Origin: Chitinophaga alhagiae
Lineage (GTDB): Bacteria > Bacteroidota > Bacteroidia > Chitinophagales > Chitinophagaceae
Assembly: GCF_003568665.1 (NCBI RefSeq)
Contig: NZ_QXMH01000002.1
Coordinates: forward strand, 992,001-1,056,000
Direction: 5' to 3'
DNA length: 64,000 nucleotides
Made by a program: the position numbers and the translations under genes. Shown here one piece after another: positions 36,619-54,273 of this stretch. Position 1 is the first letter of the stretch. Every line of letters begins with the position of its first letter. The notes beneath the pieces were generated by a model. That model made no database searches and had not been told where the DNA came from. It saw only the letters and a program-made list of their open reading frames with translations.

Positions 36619-36660
36619 CGGGCCTTATGATGGTATTATCGGGCCTTATGATGGTATTAT
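36619..36660 (+). repeat. two perfect tandem copies of a 21-bp unit
   Basis: Bases 36619-36639 and 36640-36660 are identical, adjacent and in the same direction (unit starts CGGGCCTTATGATGG). Function unknown; recent slippage or duplication is likely. Confidence 0.9.
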
Positions 36661-36675
36661 ATTAACAATACCCCC

Positions 36676-36730
36676 AACCGAACCTCAAGCGAACGTGAAG
36701 CGAACGAGAAGCGAAGGAGAACCGAAGGAG
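36676..36730 (+). repeat. five 11-bp tandem repeats
   Basis: Five units fit a period of 11: AACCGAACCTC, AAGCGAACGTG, AAGCGAACGAG, AAGCGAAGGAG and AACCGAAGGAG. They share the core AA(G/C)CGAA(C/G). Near-identical units suggest either replication slippage or a protein-binding array. Confidence 0.88.
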
Positions 36731-36760
36731 AAGATTGTGAAAATAGTATCAGTTTAAACA

Positions 36761-42698: not shown

Positions 42699-42794
42699 CG
42701 AAAAAATTACGGATGCCTGTTACCCCGGCATGCCCGGCCGGAAACATGAAAATTAATGGGCATACTTCAAAAATGTATGTAATTTGTTACGCAT

Positions 42795-45587
42795 ATGCGA
42801 AAAGTTCTATGCCTCGTATTGGCGGCAGGCCTCGCGCAACAGGCTGCCGCCCAGCAATTTGGCGGCAACCTGCCCTCCCTGAAATGGCAGCAGATCAATA
42901 CAGATACGGTACGCGTAATTTTTCCCCGCGGCATGGAAGCGTATGGCCGGCGGGTGGCGGATATTACCAGCCATGTAAGCCGGTACCACCGGGCTTCCGT
43001 TGGCCCGCTGCAGCAAAAAGTGAGCATAGTGCTGCAAAACCAGACCCTGCAATCTAACGGGTACGTGCAGCTGGGGCCTTTCCGTTCCGAGTTCTTTATG
43101 ACGCCCCCGCCTTCCAGCAACAACGTAGGCTCCCTCAACTGGGCAGACCAGCTGGCCCTGCATGAGTACCGCCACGTGCTGCAGAACGCCAACTTCCGCA
43201 AGGGGGTGAGCAAGGTGTTCTACTACCTGTCCGGGGAGCTGGGCCAGGCGGCCGTTACCAATATTGCCGTGCCCAACTGGTTTTGGGAAGGAGACGCCGT
43301 AGTGACGGAAACCGCCCTCAGCCAGCAGGGCAGGGGGCGCCTGCCGGCATTTTTCAACGGCTTCAGGGCCTTGCACCTGGCCGGCAGGAACTATTCCTAC
43401 ATGCAGGTGCGCAACGGCTCTTACCGCCGCTTTACGCCTGACCATTACGCTACCGGCTACCTCATGACCAGTTACGGCCGGCTGCAATACGGGCCTGATT
43501 TCTGGAACGGGGTAACAGACGATGCGGTGCGCTACCGCCGCCTGTTCTATCCCTTCTCCCAAAGCCTTAAACACCGCACGGGCAAAAATGCGGCGGCATT
43601 CTTCAAGGCCTCCCTGAACAGCTATACGCAACACTGGCCGGCCGCCGCCCCGCAGCCGGCAGACACGCTCACACCCGCCACCCGTACTTATACAGACTAC
43701 CGCTATGTATATGCGGACGGCAGCGGCGGCCTCATTGTATCCAAACGCTCCTACAAAACCATCCCCGCTTTTTACGCTATCAGCGCAAACGGGGAGGAAA
43801 CCCGCATTACCGCGCCGGGCCTGGGCTTTGACGATTATTTCAGCTACCGCAACGGCCATCTGCTGTGGACGGAGAGCCGCTACAGCGCCCGCTGGGGCTG
43901 GAAAGACTATTCCCTGGTACGGGTGCATGACCGGGCCACCGGCCAAACCCGCACCCTGCGCCACGAGCGCCGCTGCTTTTCGCCAGACCTTTCATTTGAC
44001 GGCCGGAGCATAGCGGTAGCGGCCGTTACGGAAAACCAGCAATACCACATTGAAATACTGGACGCCGCCAGCGGCGCCATCCTGCGCAAGCTGCCCAACC
44101 GGGAAAACTGGTATTACACCTACCCCAGGTTTGCGCCGGGAGACAGCCTGATCATCAGCGCCGTGCGGGACCAGGCGGGTAATATGGCGCTCATCAGCCA
44201 GTCCATCGCAACCGGTGAAACAACCATACTCGCGCCCTTCCGGGTGCAAACCATCGGCATAGCCGCCGTGGAAGGGGAGCAGGTGTATTTTACGGCGGCC
44301 TTCGGGGACGCGGACAATGTATACCGCCTGTCTCTCCGCCAGCCCGCCGCCATGGAGCAGGTGACCCGCCGCCCCAACGGGGTGCAGCATATGGCCCTCA
44401 CCGGCGGCGGCATTGTATACAGTGAATTTACGGCAGACGGCTACAAACTGCTGAAAAGCCCCCTTGAGCCGCAACCCTTCCGGGAAACGGGCCATAACGC
44501 CTGGTTAAAGCCCGATTTTGGCGAGGGAGGGGATATACTGGATAAAGTGCCCGCCCGGGAATATGAGGTGCGCAAATACCCTAAAACGCACCGTATTTTC
44601 AATTTCCACAGCTGGCTGCCCCGTATAGATGACCCGGACTATGGCCTGTACCTCTACGGCGAAAATGTGCTCAGTACCCTGCAGACCACGGCCGGCGCGT
44701 CTTACAACATTAACGAGAACAGCCCCGAGGTAAGCGCGGCGCTGCTGTACGGCGGCTGGTTCCCCTACCTGCGTACGGGAGCGGATTACCGCATGCGGCG
44801 CAAGCTACAGGTGAGTGATACCGTGAGCCTGGAATGGAACGAGCTGGACTGGTACGGCGGCTTCAGCATCCCGCTGAACCTCAGCGCCGGCAAGTATTAC
44901 CGCTCCCTCAGCCTGGGCGCCAACTACCATTACCTGAGCCGCGCCCGCACCCCCCGCTCCAAATACCGCTTCCGGGATGACAAGGTGCAGTACGTAGACG
45001 CCGCTTTTACCTTCAGCAACCAGCGCATCAGGGCCTTTCAGAACATCTACCCGCATTTTGCTCAGATCTTGCAGCTGCGGTACAACAAGGCGGTGAACAA
45101 CGTGCCCGCGGAGCAGTGGCTGGGCCGCCTGGACCTTTACCTGCCGGGCTTTTCCGCCAATCACAGCCTGGTGCTGCAAGGCATGTACCAGCAGCGGGAT
45201 ACCATGCTGCGGTACGCTTTCACAGATCACTTCGTATATGCGAGAGGATATGAAAAACCTTTCTACGAACATATCTATAAAGCCGGGGCCAATTATCATT
45301 TCCCTATTTGTTACCCGGACTGGGGTTTTGCCAACCTGCTGTACTTTATGCGGCTGCGCGGGAACGTGTTTTATGACCACAGCATAGCCTACAACTTTCG
45401 GAGCAGGCAGGATGTTACTTATGCATCTGCCGGGGGAGAGTTTTTTTTCGACACCAAACTGGGGAACGTGCTGCCTTTTACATTCGGCATGCGTTACAGC
45501 CACCTGCTGCATACAGACCCGGTAGACCCTTTGCGGAAAAACAGGTTTGAAGTGATAGTGCCCCTGCAGCAATTGTTTTCTTATTAA
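42795..45587 (+). CDS. predicted metallopeptidase/beta-propeller/outer-membrane barrel protein
   Basis: A 930-residue secreted protein (MRKVLCLVLAAGLAQQAAAQ). I do not know its function. Three parts are visible: an N-terminal gluzincin-like domain with HEYRH at 123-127 and WFWEGDAVVTE (162-172), which supplies a plausible third ligand Glu165; a middle region of about 290-580 with repeating blade-like segments, such as GLGFDDYFSYRNGHLLWTES and CFSPDLSFDGRSIAVAAV, reminiscent of a TolB/PD40 propeller; and a C-terminal region of about 600-930 rich in amphipathic strands (YYRSLSLGANYHYLSR, FTFGMRYSHLL) suggesting a membrane barrel. The AI-2E transporter gene starts 10 nt after its stop. Confidence 0.7.
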   Translation: MRKVLCLVLAAGLAQQAAAQQFGGNLPSLKWQQINTDTVRVIFPRGMEAYGRRVADITSHVSRYHRASVGPLQQKVSIVLQNQTLQSNGYVQLGPFRSEFFMTPPPSSNNVGSLNWADQLALHEYRHVLQNANFRKGVSKVFYYLSGELGQAAVTNIAVPNWFWEGDAVVTETALSQQGRGRLPAFFNGFRALHLAGRNYSYMQVRNGSYRRFTPDHYATGYLMTSYGRLQYGPDFWNGVTDDAVRYRRLFYPFSQSLKHRTGKNAAAFFKASLNSYTQHWPAAAPQPADTLTPATRTYTDYRYVYADGSGGLIVSKRSYKTIPAFYAISANGEETRITAPGLGFDDYFSYRNGHLLWTESRYSARWGWKDYSLVRVHDRATGQTRTLRHERRCFSPDLSFDGRSIAVAAVTENQQYHIEILDAASGAILRKLPNRENWYYTYPRFAPGDSLIISAVRDQAGNMALISQSIATGETTILAPFRVQTIGIAAVEGEQVYFTAAFGDADNVYRLSLRQPAAMEQVTRRPNGVQHMALTGGGIVYSEFTADGYKLLKSPLEPQPFRETGHNAWLKPDFGEGGDILDKVPAREYEVRKYPKTHRIFNFHSWLPRIDDPDYGLYLYGENVLSTLQTTAGASYNINENSPEVSAALLYGGWFPYLRTGADYRMRRKLQVSDTVSLEWNELDWYGGFSIPLNLSAGKYYRSLSLGANYHYLSRARTPRSKYRFRDDKVQYVDAAFTFSNQRIRAFQNIYPHFAQILQLRYNKAVNNVPAEQWLGRLDLYLPGFSANHSLVLQGMYQQRDTMLRYAFTDHFVYARGYEKPFYEHIYKAGANYHFPICYPDWGFANLLYFMRLRGNVFYDHSIAYNFRSRQDVTYASAGGEFFFDTKLGNVLPFTFGMRYSHLLHTDPVDPLRKNRFEVIVPLQQLFSY

Positions 45588-47270: not shown

Positions 47271-49967
47271 TTATAAAGTTTTTAAACTTTCTTCAATACT
47301 CTGAATCCTGTTCAGGCAATCGGACTGTTTGCGGCGTTCTGCCTCTACAATTTCCGGTTTGGCATTTTGTACAAAACGTTCGTTGGCAAGTTTCTTTTCT
47401 ACGGATTGCAGAAAGCCTTTTTGATACTCAAGCTCCTTCAGGAGTTGTTCTTTTTGAGCTTCTTTATCGATTGTTTTGTTGGTGAAAGCTTGTGTCTTAT
47501 AACCTAAAACAGGTATTGTAGTCATTGTAGTGGTAGTAGCGGACGTTGTGCTAGCGGTTGTTGGTGTAGATTCATCGATAGGCCTTTTCGTTGTTGTTGT
47601 TGTTGTTGTTGTACTTACATTTAGCTGTTTTTGAATTATCAGCATAATGCTTGAATAAAATCCAATGAGTTCATCTGGAACCACTAATTCTTCTATCACG
47701 TCAGAGCTTTTAAATTGCCCCTCCAGCCTAACTTTTTTATTTACGATAGTTATGTAAGTTTTCAAATTTGCCCCATGAGCTAGAATCTCTGTGTCTACAG
47801 ATTTTACAGGATCAAACTGGCGCACCACCAGGTCGTCTCCCGCCTTGCGCTCGCGCAGCAGGTGGTACAGTTCTTCCGTTACGAAAGGCATGAAGGGGTG
47901 CAGCAGTTGTACCAGCCGCTCAAAGAAGCTGATGGTCTTTTCGTACACGCCTGCGTTGATGGGCTGCTCAAAGCCGGGTTTGATCCATTCCAGGTACCAG
48001 CTGCAGAAATCGTCCCAGATGAGGCTGTAAATAGCTTTCAGGGCTTCGCTCAGGCGGAAGTCCTGAAACAGTTTCTCCACTTCGGCATGCACTTCGTTGA
48101 GACGGTTCTCGAACCACTCCACGGCAAACTCCGGAACGGCGGCGCCGGTATTTTCTACCGGTGTCCACATCTTCACCAGCTTCAGCGCGTTCCACATTTT
48201 ATTGTTGAAGTTGCGGCCCTGCTCGCAGCTCGCATCGTCAAACAGCAGGTCGTTACCGGCGGGAGAGGAGATCATGATGCCGAAGCGCACGGCGTCTGCG
48301 CCGAAACGTTCTATCAGCTCCAGCAGGTCTGGCGAGTTGCCGAGCGATTTGCTCATTTTGCGGCCGAGCTTGTCACGCACCATGCCGGTGAAATATACGT
48401 CGCTGAAGGGTTTCTCCTGTTTGTATTCCAGGCCGGCCATGATCATGCGGGCCACCCAGAAGAAGATAATGTCCTGGCCGGTTACCAGTACGGAAGTGGG
48501 ATAGTAGTACTCAATATCCGCATTGCCGGGCTGGCTGATGCCGTGGAACACTTCCATGGGCCAGAGCCAGGAAGAGAACCAGGTGTCCAGGCAATCCTCA
48601 TCCTGCCGGAGAGATTCCCGCGTGGCGCCGTACTGCTGCGCATAACGGCGAAGCGCTTCTTCATGCGTTTCAGCTACTACAAATTGCCCGCTTTCATCGT
48701 ACCAGGCGGGGATTTGCTGGCCCCACCAGAGCTGGCGGGAAATACACCAGTCCTTCACATTCTCCATCCAGTATTTGTAGGTGGCCATGAAGCGGTCCCC
48801 GGGGTGTATCCTCACATCGCCGCTTGTTACCGCTTCCAGCGCAGGCTGCGCCAGGTCTGCCATTTTCACGAACCACTGTGTGGAAATACGCGGTTCCACT
48901 ACCGTATCAGGGTTGCGCTGGCTGTACCCGAGGCGGGTGGCGTACTCCTGCTCTTTTACCAGCAGGCCTTGCTCCTGCAGGGCGGCCACTACCTTTTTAC
49001 GGGCGCGGAAACGGTCTTCTCCCACAAACACCACGGCCGCGGCGCTGAGGGTACCGTCTTCATTCAGCGTGTCTACCACCTCCAGGTTGTGTTTGAGGCC
49101 CAGGTTGTAGTCGTTGATATCATGCGCCGGCGTTACTTTCAGCGCGCCGGTACCAAATTCCTTGTCTACATATTCGTCAAATATCACCGGCACTTTGCGG
49201 TTTACCAGCGGCACTATGGCATAGTGGCCCTTGAGGTGCGCATACCGTTCATCTTCCGGGTTCACGCAAATAGCGGTATCGCCCATGATGGTTTCCGGGC
49301 GCTGGGTGGCAATGGTGATGAACTCCCCGGTGGCTTCGCCGGCGGCGTTCACCACGGCGTATTGTACGTGGTACAGCTTGCCGTTCAGCTCTTTGTATTC
49401 CACTTCCTCGTCACTGAGCGCGGTTTTGGCCTTGGGGTCCCAGTTGATCATGCGGGCGCCGCGGTAAATGAGGCCTTTGTTGTACAGGTCTACGAATACC
49501 TTGATCACTGCTTTGTAATAGTGATCGTCCATGGTGAAGTTGACCCGCTCCCAATCTACAGAGCAGCCCAGTTTTTTGATCTGGTGGTAGATGATGCCGC
49601 CGTATTTTTCCTTCCACTCATGCGCGTATTGCAGGAACTCCCCGCGGGTGAGCTGGCTTTTTTCTATTCCTTTTTCTTCTTTCAGCATGTTCACCACCTT
49701 GGTTTCGGTGGCAATGGAAGCATGGTCCGAGCCGGGTACCCAGCAGGCATTGAAGCCGCTCATGCGGGCATGGCGCACCAGGATGTCCTGCACGGTTTCA
49801 TTGAGGGTATGGCCCATGTGGAGCACGCCCGTAACGTTAGGCGGAGGTATAACAATGGTGAACGGAGGCCGCCCGTCGGGAACGGAGCGGAAATATTGCT
49901 TGTCCATCCAGTACTGGTACCACTTGTCTTCTGCCGAGGCAGGGATATAATTCTTCGAAAGTTCCAT
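47271..49967 (-). CDS. valS: valyl-tRNA synthetase with unusual Thr-rich C-terminal segment
   Basis: An 898-residue class I synthetase from ATG 49967 (the frame is open 13 codons further). HMGH is at 50-53 and KMSKS at 537-541. The CP1 editing domain and anticodon-binding helices are normal. The C-terminal coiled coil (QKEQLLKELEYQKGFLQS to the end) is also normal. Between them, residues 786-817 (32 residues, 19 of them Thr) form a linker containing eight consecutive Thr, encoded by seven ACA codons and one ACG (47589-47612). Bases 47461-47820 are about 37% GC against a high-GC background. The enzyme still has all catalytic motifs; the altered part is C-terminal to them. Confidence 0.95.
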   Translation of the reverse strand: MELSKNYIPASAEDKWYQYWMDKQYFRSVPDGRPPFTIVIPPPNVTGVLHMGHTLNETVQDILVRHARMSGFNACWVPGSDHASIATETKVVNMLKEEKGIEKSQLTRGEFLQYAHEWKEKYGGIIYHQIKKLGCSVDWERVNFTMDDHYYKAVIKVFVDLYNKGLIYRGARMINWDPKAKTALSDEEVEYKELNGKLYHVQYAVVNAAGEATGEFITIATQRPETIMGDTAICVNPEDERYAHLKGHYAIVPLVNRKVPVIFDEYVDKEFGTGALKVTPAHDINDYNLGLKHNLEVVDTLNEDGTLSAAAVVFVGEDRFRARKKVVAALQEQGLLVKEQEYATRLGYSQRNPDTVVEPRISTQWFVKMADLAQPALEAVTSGDVRIHPGDRFMATYKYWMENVKDWCISRQLWWGQQIPAWYDESGQFVVAETHEEALRRYAQQYGATRESLRQDEDCLDTWFSSWLWPMEVFHGISQPGNADIEYYYPTSVLVTGQDIIFFWVARMIMAGLEYKQEKPFSDVYFTGMVRDKLGRKMSKSLGNSPDLLELIERFGADAVRFGIMISSPAGNDLLFDDASCEQGRNFNNKMWNALKLVKMWTPVENTGAAVPEFAVEWFENRLNEVHAEVEKLFQDFRLSEALKAIYSLIWDDFCSWYLEWIKPGFEQPINAGVYEKTISFFERLVQLLHPFMPFVTEELYHLLRERKAGDDLVVRQFDPVKSVDTEILAHGANLKTYITIVNKKVRLEGQFKSSDVIEELVVPDELIGFYSSIMLIIQKQLNVSTTTTTTTTKRPIDESTPTTASTTSATTTTMTTIPVLGYKTQAFTNKTIDKEAQKEQLLKELEYQKGFLQSVEKKLANERFVQNAKPEIVEAERRKQSDCLNRIQSIEESLKTL
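47461..47820 (-). other. low-GC segment inside valS
   Basis: A hand count gives 132 G+C in 360 bases (37%), lower than the surrounding valS sequence, and it covers the Thr-rich linker. The shift in base composition points to a local replacement, an insertion or a repeat expansion. Confidence 0.7.
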
Positions 49968-50366
49968 GCTGTATATAATATATGCGATTTCTTTACAGGA
50001 TTGCAAAAATATTGAATCTGGCCAGTATTTCCACTACCGGCCCCGAAATGGCCGCCCGGCGGCGTTTTTTTGCCTGCCTGCGCGGCGTGGCGGCAGTTTT
50101 TTGGGGGAGTGCAGGGCCTGTGCGGCGCGAGGCGCATATTCCGGAAGGTATTCCCGGCTGGGCGCCTGAAGAGGTTGCCTGTGGCGCTGGTATATATTTC
50201 CGAAGCCGCTCTCCCCGGTGCGAATAAAAAACGTCTGTTAAACTGCAACCCCCATCGGTTAAAGAAAACCCGTTATCCGATCATTTGACGGGAAAGCCTG
50301 CTGCGGGCGCCGCTATCTTCGCCCCCGATATTTATTTCAACATCATCAAACAAAGTAAAAAAGTTC
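49968..50366. other. 399-nt gap between valS and the first collagen-like gene
   Basis: The gap holds the -7 element of valS and the upstream region of the first collagen-like gene. No gene was recognised in it; open frames in both directions have unlike codon use. Confidence 0.6.
50004..50011 (-). promoter_or_regulatory. -7 element for valS
   Basis: On the minus strand TATTTTTG is an exact TAnnTTTG match, 36 nt upstream of the start at 49967. Confidence 0.5.
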
Positions 50367-53024: not shown

Positions 53025-53415
53025 TAAATATTTTGCAATAACGGGTGAAATAAATTAGAGAAGTTTTTAATCCGAATATGATTATTTTTCAATTGTTAAA
53101 ATTTACATAAAGCGCCGGAAATACTGACGAAAACGCTATAAAAATCCGTTTATATGGAGTACTTTGTTTAAGGAAGTCAGGCATAGAGACTGGCTTTCCA
53201 AAGTGCGCAACCATTGATAGTGAACGAGTAACGCGCGTCTTACCCCGGTCGGTCGTAACCCATCCGCAGCCATGTTGTCATATTTGGAAGAGTGGGGGAT
53301 TAGCACGATCTTTGCAGGCTAATTTCGCAACCGTGTAAGATATACCATTTAAATGTTACAACAAAATTATCTTTCGGCTGTTAGTATAATATTCGTAAAC
53401 CAATACTTTTAAAAT
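53025..53415. other. 391-nt gap upstream of the primary sigma factor gene
   Basis: It carries the sigma factor promoter (53283-53314) and the upstream region of the threonine aldolase gene. No RNA gene or further reading frame could be supported. Confidence 0.6.
53283..53314 (+). promoter_or_regulatory. possible promoter for the primary sigma factor gene
   Basis: TTTG (53283-53286), a 20-nt spacer and GATCTTTG (53307-53314) follow the -33/-7 layout, with one mismatch in the -7 box (G in place of T). The leader would be about 95 nt. Confidence 0.4.
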
Positions 53416-54273
53416 ATGAGGCAACTTAAAATTGCCACCCAGATCACCAATCGTGATTCGCAGGCGGTAGAAAAATACCTGCAGGAAATCTCGAAGATCC
53501 CCTTGTTAACTCCAGAGGAAGAGACCATACTGGCTCAGCGCATCAAAATGGGCGACCAGCGGGCTCTCGAAAGATTAACTACAGGAAACCTTCGTTTCGT
53601 TGTTTCCGTGGCCAAACAGTATCAACACCAGGGCTTAAGCCTCAGCGACCTCATCAACGAGGGCAATTTAGGGTTGATCAAGGCCGCACAGCGTTTCGAT
53701 GAAACCAAAGGTTTTAAATTCATTTCATACGCGGTATGGTGGATACGTCAATCCATCCTGCAGGCGTTGGCAGAGCAGGGCCGCCTTGTCCGCCTGCCGC
53801 AAAACAAGATCGGCACTTACAACAAAGCGAATAAAGCTTACATGGCATTTGAGCAGGAGAACGAGCGTGAGCCTTCTACCGAGGAACTGGCAGAGATCCT
53901 GGAAATGTCTGAGTCGGAGATCAACAATATCTTCCAGAGCAATACCCGCCACATGTCTCTTGATGCACCCGTGCATGAAGCGGAAGACGTGGCCATGGGC
54001 GACCTGCTGGAAGGCGGTGATGTGACCGATGACGATGTCATGCAAGATTCCCTTCGTGAAGAGATCCGCCGCGTGCTCAAGTCCCTGAGCCCCCGCGAAG
54101 CGGAAATTGTGAACGCGTACTTTGGTCTGGATGGTGAAAACGGCGCAACAATTGAACAAATAGGACAGAAATACGATTTGACGAAGGAACGTATCCGCCA
54201 AATCAAGGAAAGGGCCATCAAAAGGCTGCAAAAAGCCCGCTATAGCGGCGCATTGAAATCCTATCTGGGATAA
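53416..54273 (+). CDS. rpoD: primary RNA polymerase sigma factor, RpoD/SigA type
   Basis: A 285-residue protein, short because Bacteroidota primary sigma factors lack most of region 1.1. It keeps region 1.2 (MRQLKIATQITNRDSQAVEKY), region 2 (LRFVVSVAKQYQHQGLSLSDLINEGNLGLIKAAQRFD, KFISYAVWWIRQSI), region 3 and region 4.2 (TIEQIGQKYDLTKERIRQIKERAIKRLQ). It directs most transcription in this phylum, from promoters with the TAnnTTTG -7 box that are abundant in this window. A terminator follows at 54308-54348. Confidence 0.95.
   Translation: MRQLKIATQITNRDSQAVEKYLQEISKIPLLTPEEETILAQRIKMGDQRALERLTTGNLRFVVSVAKQYQHQGLSLSDLINEGNLGLIKAAQRFDETKGFKFISYAVWWIRQSILQALAEQGRLVRLPQNKIGTYNKANKAYMAFEQENEREPSTEELAEILEMSESEINNIFQSNTRHMSLDAPVHEAEDVAMGDLLEGGDVTDDDVMQDSLREEIRRVLKSLSPREAEIVNAYFGLDGENGATIEQIGQKYDLTKERIRQIKERAIKRLQKARYSGALKSYLG

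Follow-up and report, generated by a model that had tools for sequence, protein, structure and literature searches.

What kind of event placed a low-GC, Thr-rich segment inside a valyl-tRNA synthetase (ValRS)? The first-pass annotation of the 64,000-nucleotide stretch of Chitinophaga alhagiae DNA analyzed here (the window) had singled out a 32-residue stretch of this enzyme and offered a repeat expansion, a local replacement by transfer, or an inserted linker as explanations. The gene, valS, and its parts are as follows.

47271..50006, minus strand: valS, valyl-tRNA synthetase (above the cut-offs of NF004349 and TIGR00422; sole full-length match in its own genome)
47820..49967, minus strand: native gene body, with the catalytic and editing domains plus the greater part of the anticodon-binding domain (protein identity to congener G054; flank tree)
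47469..47819, minus strand: divergent linker of 117 codons joining the anticodon-binding bundle and the coiled coil, GC 0.37, GC3 0.29 (alignment, composition, class membership)
47724..47792, minus strand: predicted helix TEILAHGANLKTYITIVNKKVRL, overlapping the site of the canonical IRDARNKNQxKPKD helix (AlphaFold2 model, alignment)
47517..47612, minus strand: Thr-rich stretch, 19 Thr in 32 residues, mostly a low-confidence loop between predicted strands (pLDDT below 50 at model residues 253 to 272)
47589..47612, minus strand: (ACA)7ACG, encoding eight Thr (sequence)
47271..47468, minus strand: C-terminal coiled-coil arm and stop codon, native in protein, AT-shifted at third positions (PF10458 at residues 849 to 911)

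The product passed both full-length NCBIfam ValRS profiles (NF004349 with 1045.5 bits against a cut-off of 704; TIGR00422 with 882 bits against 612.1) and had the Pfam domain order of a ValRS (PF00133 at residues 28 to 588, PF08264 at 630 to 769, and PF10458 at 849 to 911). The listed frame opens with TTG, and the likelier start is the ATG at 49967 (MELSKNY...), where most congeners begin aligning. This was the one full-length ValRS in its genome, a second valS copy was not found there (the next DNA match of the linker tract had an E value of 0.32), and the genome has this single form, in its native gene neighborhood. From its status as the sole ValRS, the enzyme would be expected to charge tRNA-Val. 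Plus-strand frames inside the linker tract were all of 46 aa or less, and one of 79 aa (47791 to 48030) touched the tract edge. That the segment is an assembly or sequencing artefact, or belongs to a decayed and nonfunctional gene, is the least probable of the explanations considered: the window linker is unique among the congeners read, but the frame is open throughout, the flanks and tail are conserved, the genome of which this is the only ValRS is 99.99% complete, and the same linker class recurs in independent genomes.

The segment is as dense in Thr as first described, with 19 Thr in 32 residues at 47517 to 47612 (the runner-up among the window's stop-free frames of at least 200 aa had 8 per 32 residues), and the eight consecutive Thr do come from an ACA-type repeat, ACA seven times plus ACG at 47589 to 47612. 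The low GC, put at about 37%, is likewise real: the linker had a GC of 0.368 and a GC3 of 0.29, compared with 0.553 and 0.71 in the preceding part of valS, and ACA supplied 15 of 25 Thr codons in the linker versus 3 of 34 in the rest of the gene. The Thr count of the 32-residue stretch thus stands, but not its extent, since the aberrant tract covers about 117 codons (47469 to 47819). Nor is the anticodon-binding part wholly normal, because the tract begins near residue 731, inside the span of Pfam Anticodon_1, which runs to residue 769. Plain expansion of an ACA trinucleotide repeat in a normal linker would fit the (ACA)7ACG run and the shorter Thr runs present, but most of the 117-codon divergent tract lies outside the Thr stretch, which refutes expansion as a full account and makes it highly improbable as one; expansion may still account for the Thr loop, the only part of the tract that it explains.

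Alignment with the ValRS of near relatives, the check that the first-pass annotation had proposed, found the segment, whose presence in relatives would have spoken against a local change, in none of the 77 congeners read. Linkers were read from 77 of the 78 other genomes of the genus (G069, frame-split, was left out); all 77 were of the canonical IRDARNKxQxKPKD type, and the window linker differed from every one, its class occurring instead in more distant genera. (In G069, valS, record L223, is split over two frames; that genome is only 80% complete, and the split may be an error.) The valS body was 94% identical in protein to that of G054 over residues 21 to 710, with a codon-aligned nucleotide identity mostly of 0.8 to 0.9 and a lowest block of 0.74. 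Past the RQF codons this identity dropped to about 0.3 to 0.4, and it returned at the QKEQLL codons. Between the aligned columns the window linker had 102 residues against 82 in congeners. An inserted linker in the strict sense therefore does not describe the locus: where the canonical linker would be, there is instead a divergent homologue of it with 20 more residues.

Among 396 genomes of the order, the best foreign match of the window linker was the ValRS of G387 (E = 2.6e-6, 33% over 71 aa), whose linker is likewise aberrant. The Puia-type genus of G387 had matches in 28 of 33 genomes, and 6 of its 25 linkers listed belonged to the divergent class, the others being canonical or altered otherwise; five of these six variants (records L160 to L164) came from MAGs. 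Side by side with these, four Puia-type linkers (L109, L112, L117, and L119) were shortened or divergent in ways of their own, and in that genus this part of the enzyme may be especially prone to change. A seven-linker profile searched against 394 genomes of the family, and built without the linker that it found, recovered an eighth variant in a third genus, G555, at 72.1 bits (next row, 59.3 bits). The rare class thus comprised 8 ValRS found, in three genera of one family. A profile search of the phylum (395 genomes) returned 7 genomes at an E value of 1e-9 or less, the window's included, all in the same family, and a profile search of the order (396 genomes) gave no further variants, the best row beyond G387 and the window being a canonical linker (L126, 65.1 bits). 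The window linker alone had no confirmed match among named genomes. No relative was found for it in phages, plasmids, or viral contigs, for the G555 linker in plasmids and phages, or for the variant profile in viral contigs; these searches returned one phage row at an E value of 5. No published account of such a ValRS linker was found in the literature searched.

Members of the class share position-specific features. A Ser/Thr-rich tract lay at the same place in 4 of 8 variants (window, G555, G486, and, more weakly, G475), G555 having ...STSSTTTTTTTIPIEGWATQ... at the site where the window has ...TSATTTTMTTIPVLGYKTQ..., and a motif defined post hoc from the alignment, [IF]P[FVI]..[YWHS] after the Thr tract, was present in 8 of 8 variants and 0 of 106 others. 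When the comparison was limited to the part of the window linker preceding the Thr tract, the six closest of 113 linkers were all variants; variant L095 fell outside the 20 linkers most like that first part. The closest linker to the window's was that of G555, at 36 to 38% identity, so that no donor near in sequence was found. G555 keeps RDFRNK, canonical linkers having RDxRNK, and the sole other genome in its genus has a canonical linker; against G500, its identity dropped in the linker too, and one block of the body was also variable (0.28 protein identity). Since 4 of 8 variants lacked a clear GC dip, low GC is no mark of the class. Outside the linker, two residues just before it were present in all 8 variants and absent from 45 to 46 of 106 others, and a search for covarying residues in the flanks gave two columns (455 and 858), both weak.

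Profile scores and trees placed the window linker with the variants of the Puia-type genus and not with its congeners. An HMM built from the six Puia-type variants, and thus held out from the other two, ranked the window (62.4 bits) and G555 (52.8 bits) first and second of 108 linkers. Thirty canonical HMMs of six linkers each gave the window a mean of 32.5 and a best score of 44.9, leaving the variant HMM 29.9 bits above the canonical mean, and gave G555 a mean of 44.4 and a best score of 52.1; the other 106 linkers favored the canonical HMMs by at least 11 bits (mean, 94.5). Of the 114 distinct ValRS rows, 54 entered the trees; 7 that had been intended were missing from the set. In the linker tree (54 rows, 99 columns) the 8 variants formed one clade with 100/100 support, a unity that is partly built in because linker similarity was what defined the class, and the approximately unbiased (AU) test rejected a grouping of the window with its congeners (p = 0.0086). 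A control tree confined to the 64 columns that precede the Thr tract, with four long rows left out, gave a weaker placement: the clade of 8 persisted (100/98.6), but the window with congeners was not rejected (AU p = 0.0835).

The flanks gave a different history. In their tree the window stood beside G054, G555 stood beside G500, and the Puia-type variants were scattered among their own kin at two or three points; several forks were weakly supported. This scatter of the 8 variants is not built in by the class definition. A clade of 8 was rejected for the flanks (AU p = 5.2e-7), and the window with congeners was not (p = 0.755), in a quick tree search whose unconstrained result fell 16.7 log units short of the tree holding the window with its congeners. 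An otherwise native valS thus carries a linker of a rare class, and the rest of each variant gene follows its own lineage. Local replacement by transfer has the strongest support of the three explanations first proposed, given the sharp 5' edge, the loss of nucleotide similarity across the whole linker, and the tree conflict. We put at about 0.6 the probability that the window valS is a mosaic, formed by horizontal exchange of a sub-gene linker module and then by expansion of its Thr loop.

The 3' edge is another matter. The coiled coil had been called normal, which is true of the protein (90% identity to the nearest congener, G054, over the last 61 residues) but not of its third positions, which are AT-shifted. 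Of the 55 residues that the tail shares with G054, 26 use an identical codon (0.47); the corresponding fraction was 0.69 for the body (p = 0.001) and 0.61 for the tails of two congeners (p = 0.04). The GC3 of the tail was 0.38, against 0.59. The valS tail (47271 to 47468) is thus unusually diverged at synonymous sites while conserved in protein. This divergence blurs the 3' edge of an import: either the imported piece derived from a low-GC relative and extended into the tail, or a local AT-biased process has acted at the 3' end of the gene.

The AT shift of the tail also counts in favor of the main rival to transfer, accelerated divergence in place, by which relaxed constraint, AT-biased drift, and repeat expansion would have acted separately in the window lineage, in some Puia-type genomes, and in G555, the likeness among variants being partly convergence or long-branch attraction. 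The variants do occupy long end branches in the linker tree and have low identity to each other, the 64-column control did not reject the window with congeners, the four Puia-type linkers mentioned above were altered in their own ways, and G555 looks intermediate, its variant score of 52.8 being barely above its best canonical score of 52.1. Yet nearly saturated nucleotide change beside flanks of mostly 0.8 to 0.9 identity demands a very high local rate, and separate origins sit poorly with the common motif, the ranking by the held-out HMM, the 100/100 linker clade, and the Ser/Thr tract at the same turn in the window, G555, G486, and, more weakly, G475. We regard divergence in place as a possible but clearly less likely history than transfer.

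Genes around valS were in the same order as in four congeners, and no mobile genes were seen near it in the window. Neighborhoods of valS in the other variant genera were mostly unlike that of the window, except that in G486 and G475 the gene next to valS is distantly homologous (34 to 39%) to the window gene at 42783 to 45584, which canonical congeners have too. Elsewhere in the window, a plus-strand gene at 53413 to 54270 encodes a sigma-70 factor of 286 aa with Pfam regions 1.2, 2, 3, and 4, which scored under the cut-off of every RpoD model and was 99 to 100% identical in protein to its counterparts in four congeners, nearby genes being mostly 60 to 96% identical; and at 36619 to 36733, a 21-base unit is present in two exact copies, after which an 11-base unit is repeated imperfectly about four times. 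A divergent ValRS might also be kept for resistance to an antibiotic or toxin that targets the enzyme. The patchy occurrence of the class across genera with the same tRNA would fit, and antibiotics are discussed as a selective force for whole-gene homeoalleles (PMC3191353), but the catalytic domain is native, the score against alt_ValS (NCBIfam NF000540) was 256.9 bits, under the cut-off of 900, and no toxin or biosynthetic gene was identified among the five adjacent or near neighbors annotated, two of which had no family match. Resistance of this kind is accordingly quite improbable.

The coiled-coil arm of ValRS acts at the elbow of the tRNA, as reported for Thermus thermophilus. An AlphaFold2 model of the last 359 residues, made with six sequences, was modest (best pLDDT 66.4, the other four 50 to 53; pTM 0.54). 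It gave the linker a helix, a strand, short helices, a strand, the unstructured Thr loop, and two strands before the coiled coil. The first Foldseek match of the model was the T. thermophilus ValRS (1gax; E = 7.4e-12), and model residues 46 to 293 matched the C-terminal region of the Pseudomonas aeruginosa ValRS (4xkz) with a Z score of 17.1 and an rmsd of 3.7 over 226 aligned residues; such matches take the linker together with its flanks, and the VIA-align list tests mainly model residues 2 to 192. The linker sequence alone had no match in the PDB. The linker fold appears to be kept as in an ordinary ValRS, judged from this modest model of linker plus flanks, and within the same limits the Thr tract looks like a loop. 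The window region thus resembles the canonical bacterial C-terminal region (1gax, 4xkz) in position and predicted fold but differs from it in lacking the canonical helix motif and in having the Thr-rich loop. On the tRNA side, the two tRNA-Val(UAC) genes of the window genome and the two of G054 all encode the same tRNA, and variant G475 and canonical G485 likewise have theirs in common, so that the linker change is not tied to a change in the UAC tRNA; a change of tRNA-Val as driver was rejected for this tRNA. The sequence pattern used gave no match to a GAC tRNA-Val in the window genome.

If the linker module was exchanged, it would have come by recombination with the valS of another, lower-GC member of the family that lies outside the collections, and the import perhaps took in part or all of the valS 3' end. 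A Ser/Thr-rich loop, present in half of the class, would later have grown through expansion of the ACA repeat. The linker would keep its small alpha/beta fold joining bundle to coiled coil, letting the arm still reach the elbow of the same tRNA-Val, and the Thr tract would be a flexible loop at a strand-to-strand turn with no catalytic role. More speculatively, and with a low chance of being right, two old allele classes of the linker may move among species of the family as a cassette smaller than a gene (a "module homeoallele") under frequency-dependent selection, since a toxin, phage protein, or inhibitor would recognize the linker or the coiled-coil junction; the Thr-rich loop would then be an evasive surface.

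Three known systems bear comparison. Homeoalleles of aminoacyl-tRNA synthetases (ThrRS, SerRS, and TyrRS; Andam and Gogarten) are divergent synthetase forms with a patchy distribution across taxa, usually one form per species and sometimes in the same gene neighborhood (PMC3191353). In those cases whole genes differ, whereas here the clear difference is confined to the linker, about 117 codons long; the window valS, with its native body, is not a whole-gene homeoallele and would be a sub-gene, in-place form of one. Cyanobacterial ValRS with a CAAD module at position 750 or 820, the removal of which affected catalysis little, also vary at a site that by number falls near or inside the window linker (residues 730 to 846), but CAAD is an inserted membrane anchor (PMC4893482), the window has a homologous linker replacing the native one, and CAAD was not among the 7 Pfam families listed for the window ValRS at E values of 10 or less. 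Lateral transfer of gene fragments (Chan et al.) recombines sub-gene pieces, in conserved genes too (PMC2639706); that work surveyed breakpoints, whereas the valS linker is a single module that reappears across several genera, always in that gene.

Phylogenetic work often handles an essential synthetase as one unit. If the history of this linker differs from that of the rest of the gene, even a housekeeping enzyme would be exchangeable in pieces, and closely related pairs that share the same tRNA and are distinguished chiefly by the linker module allow the role of the ValRS junction, and selection on it, to be tested.
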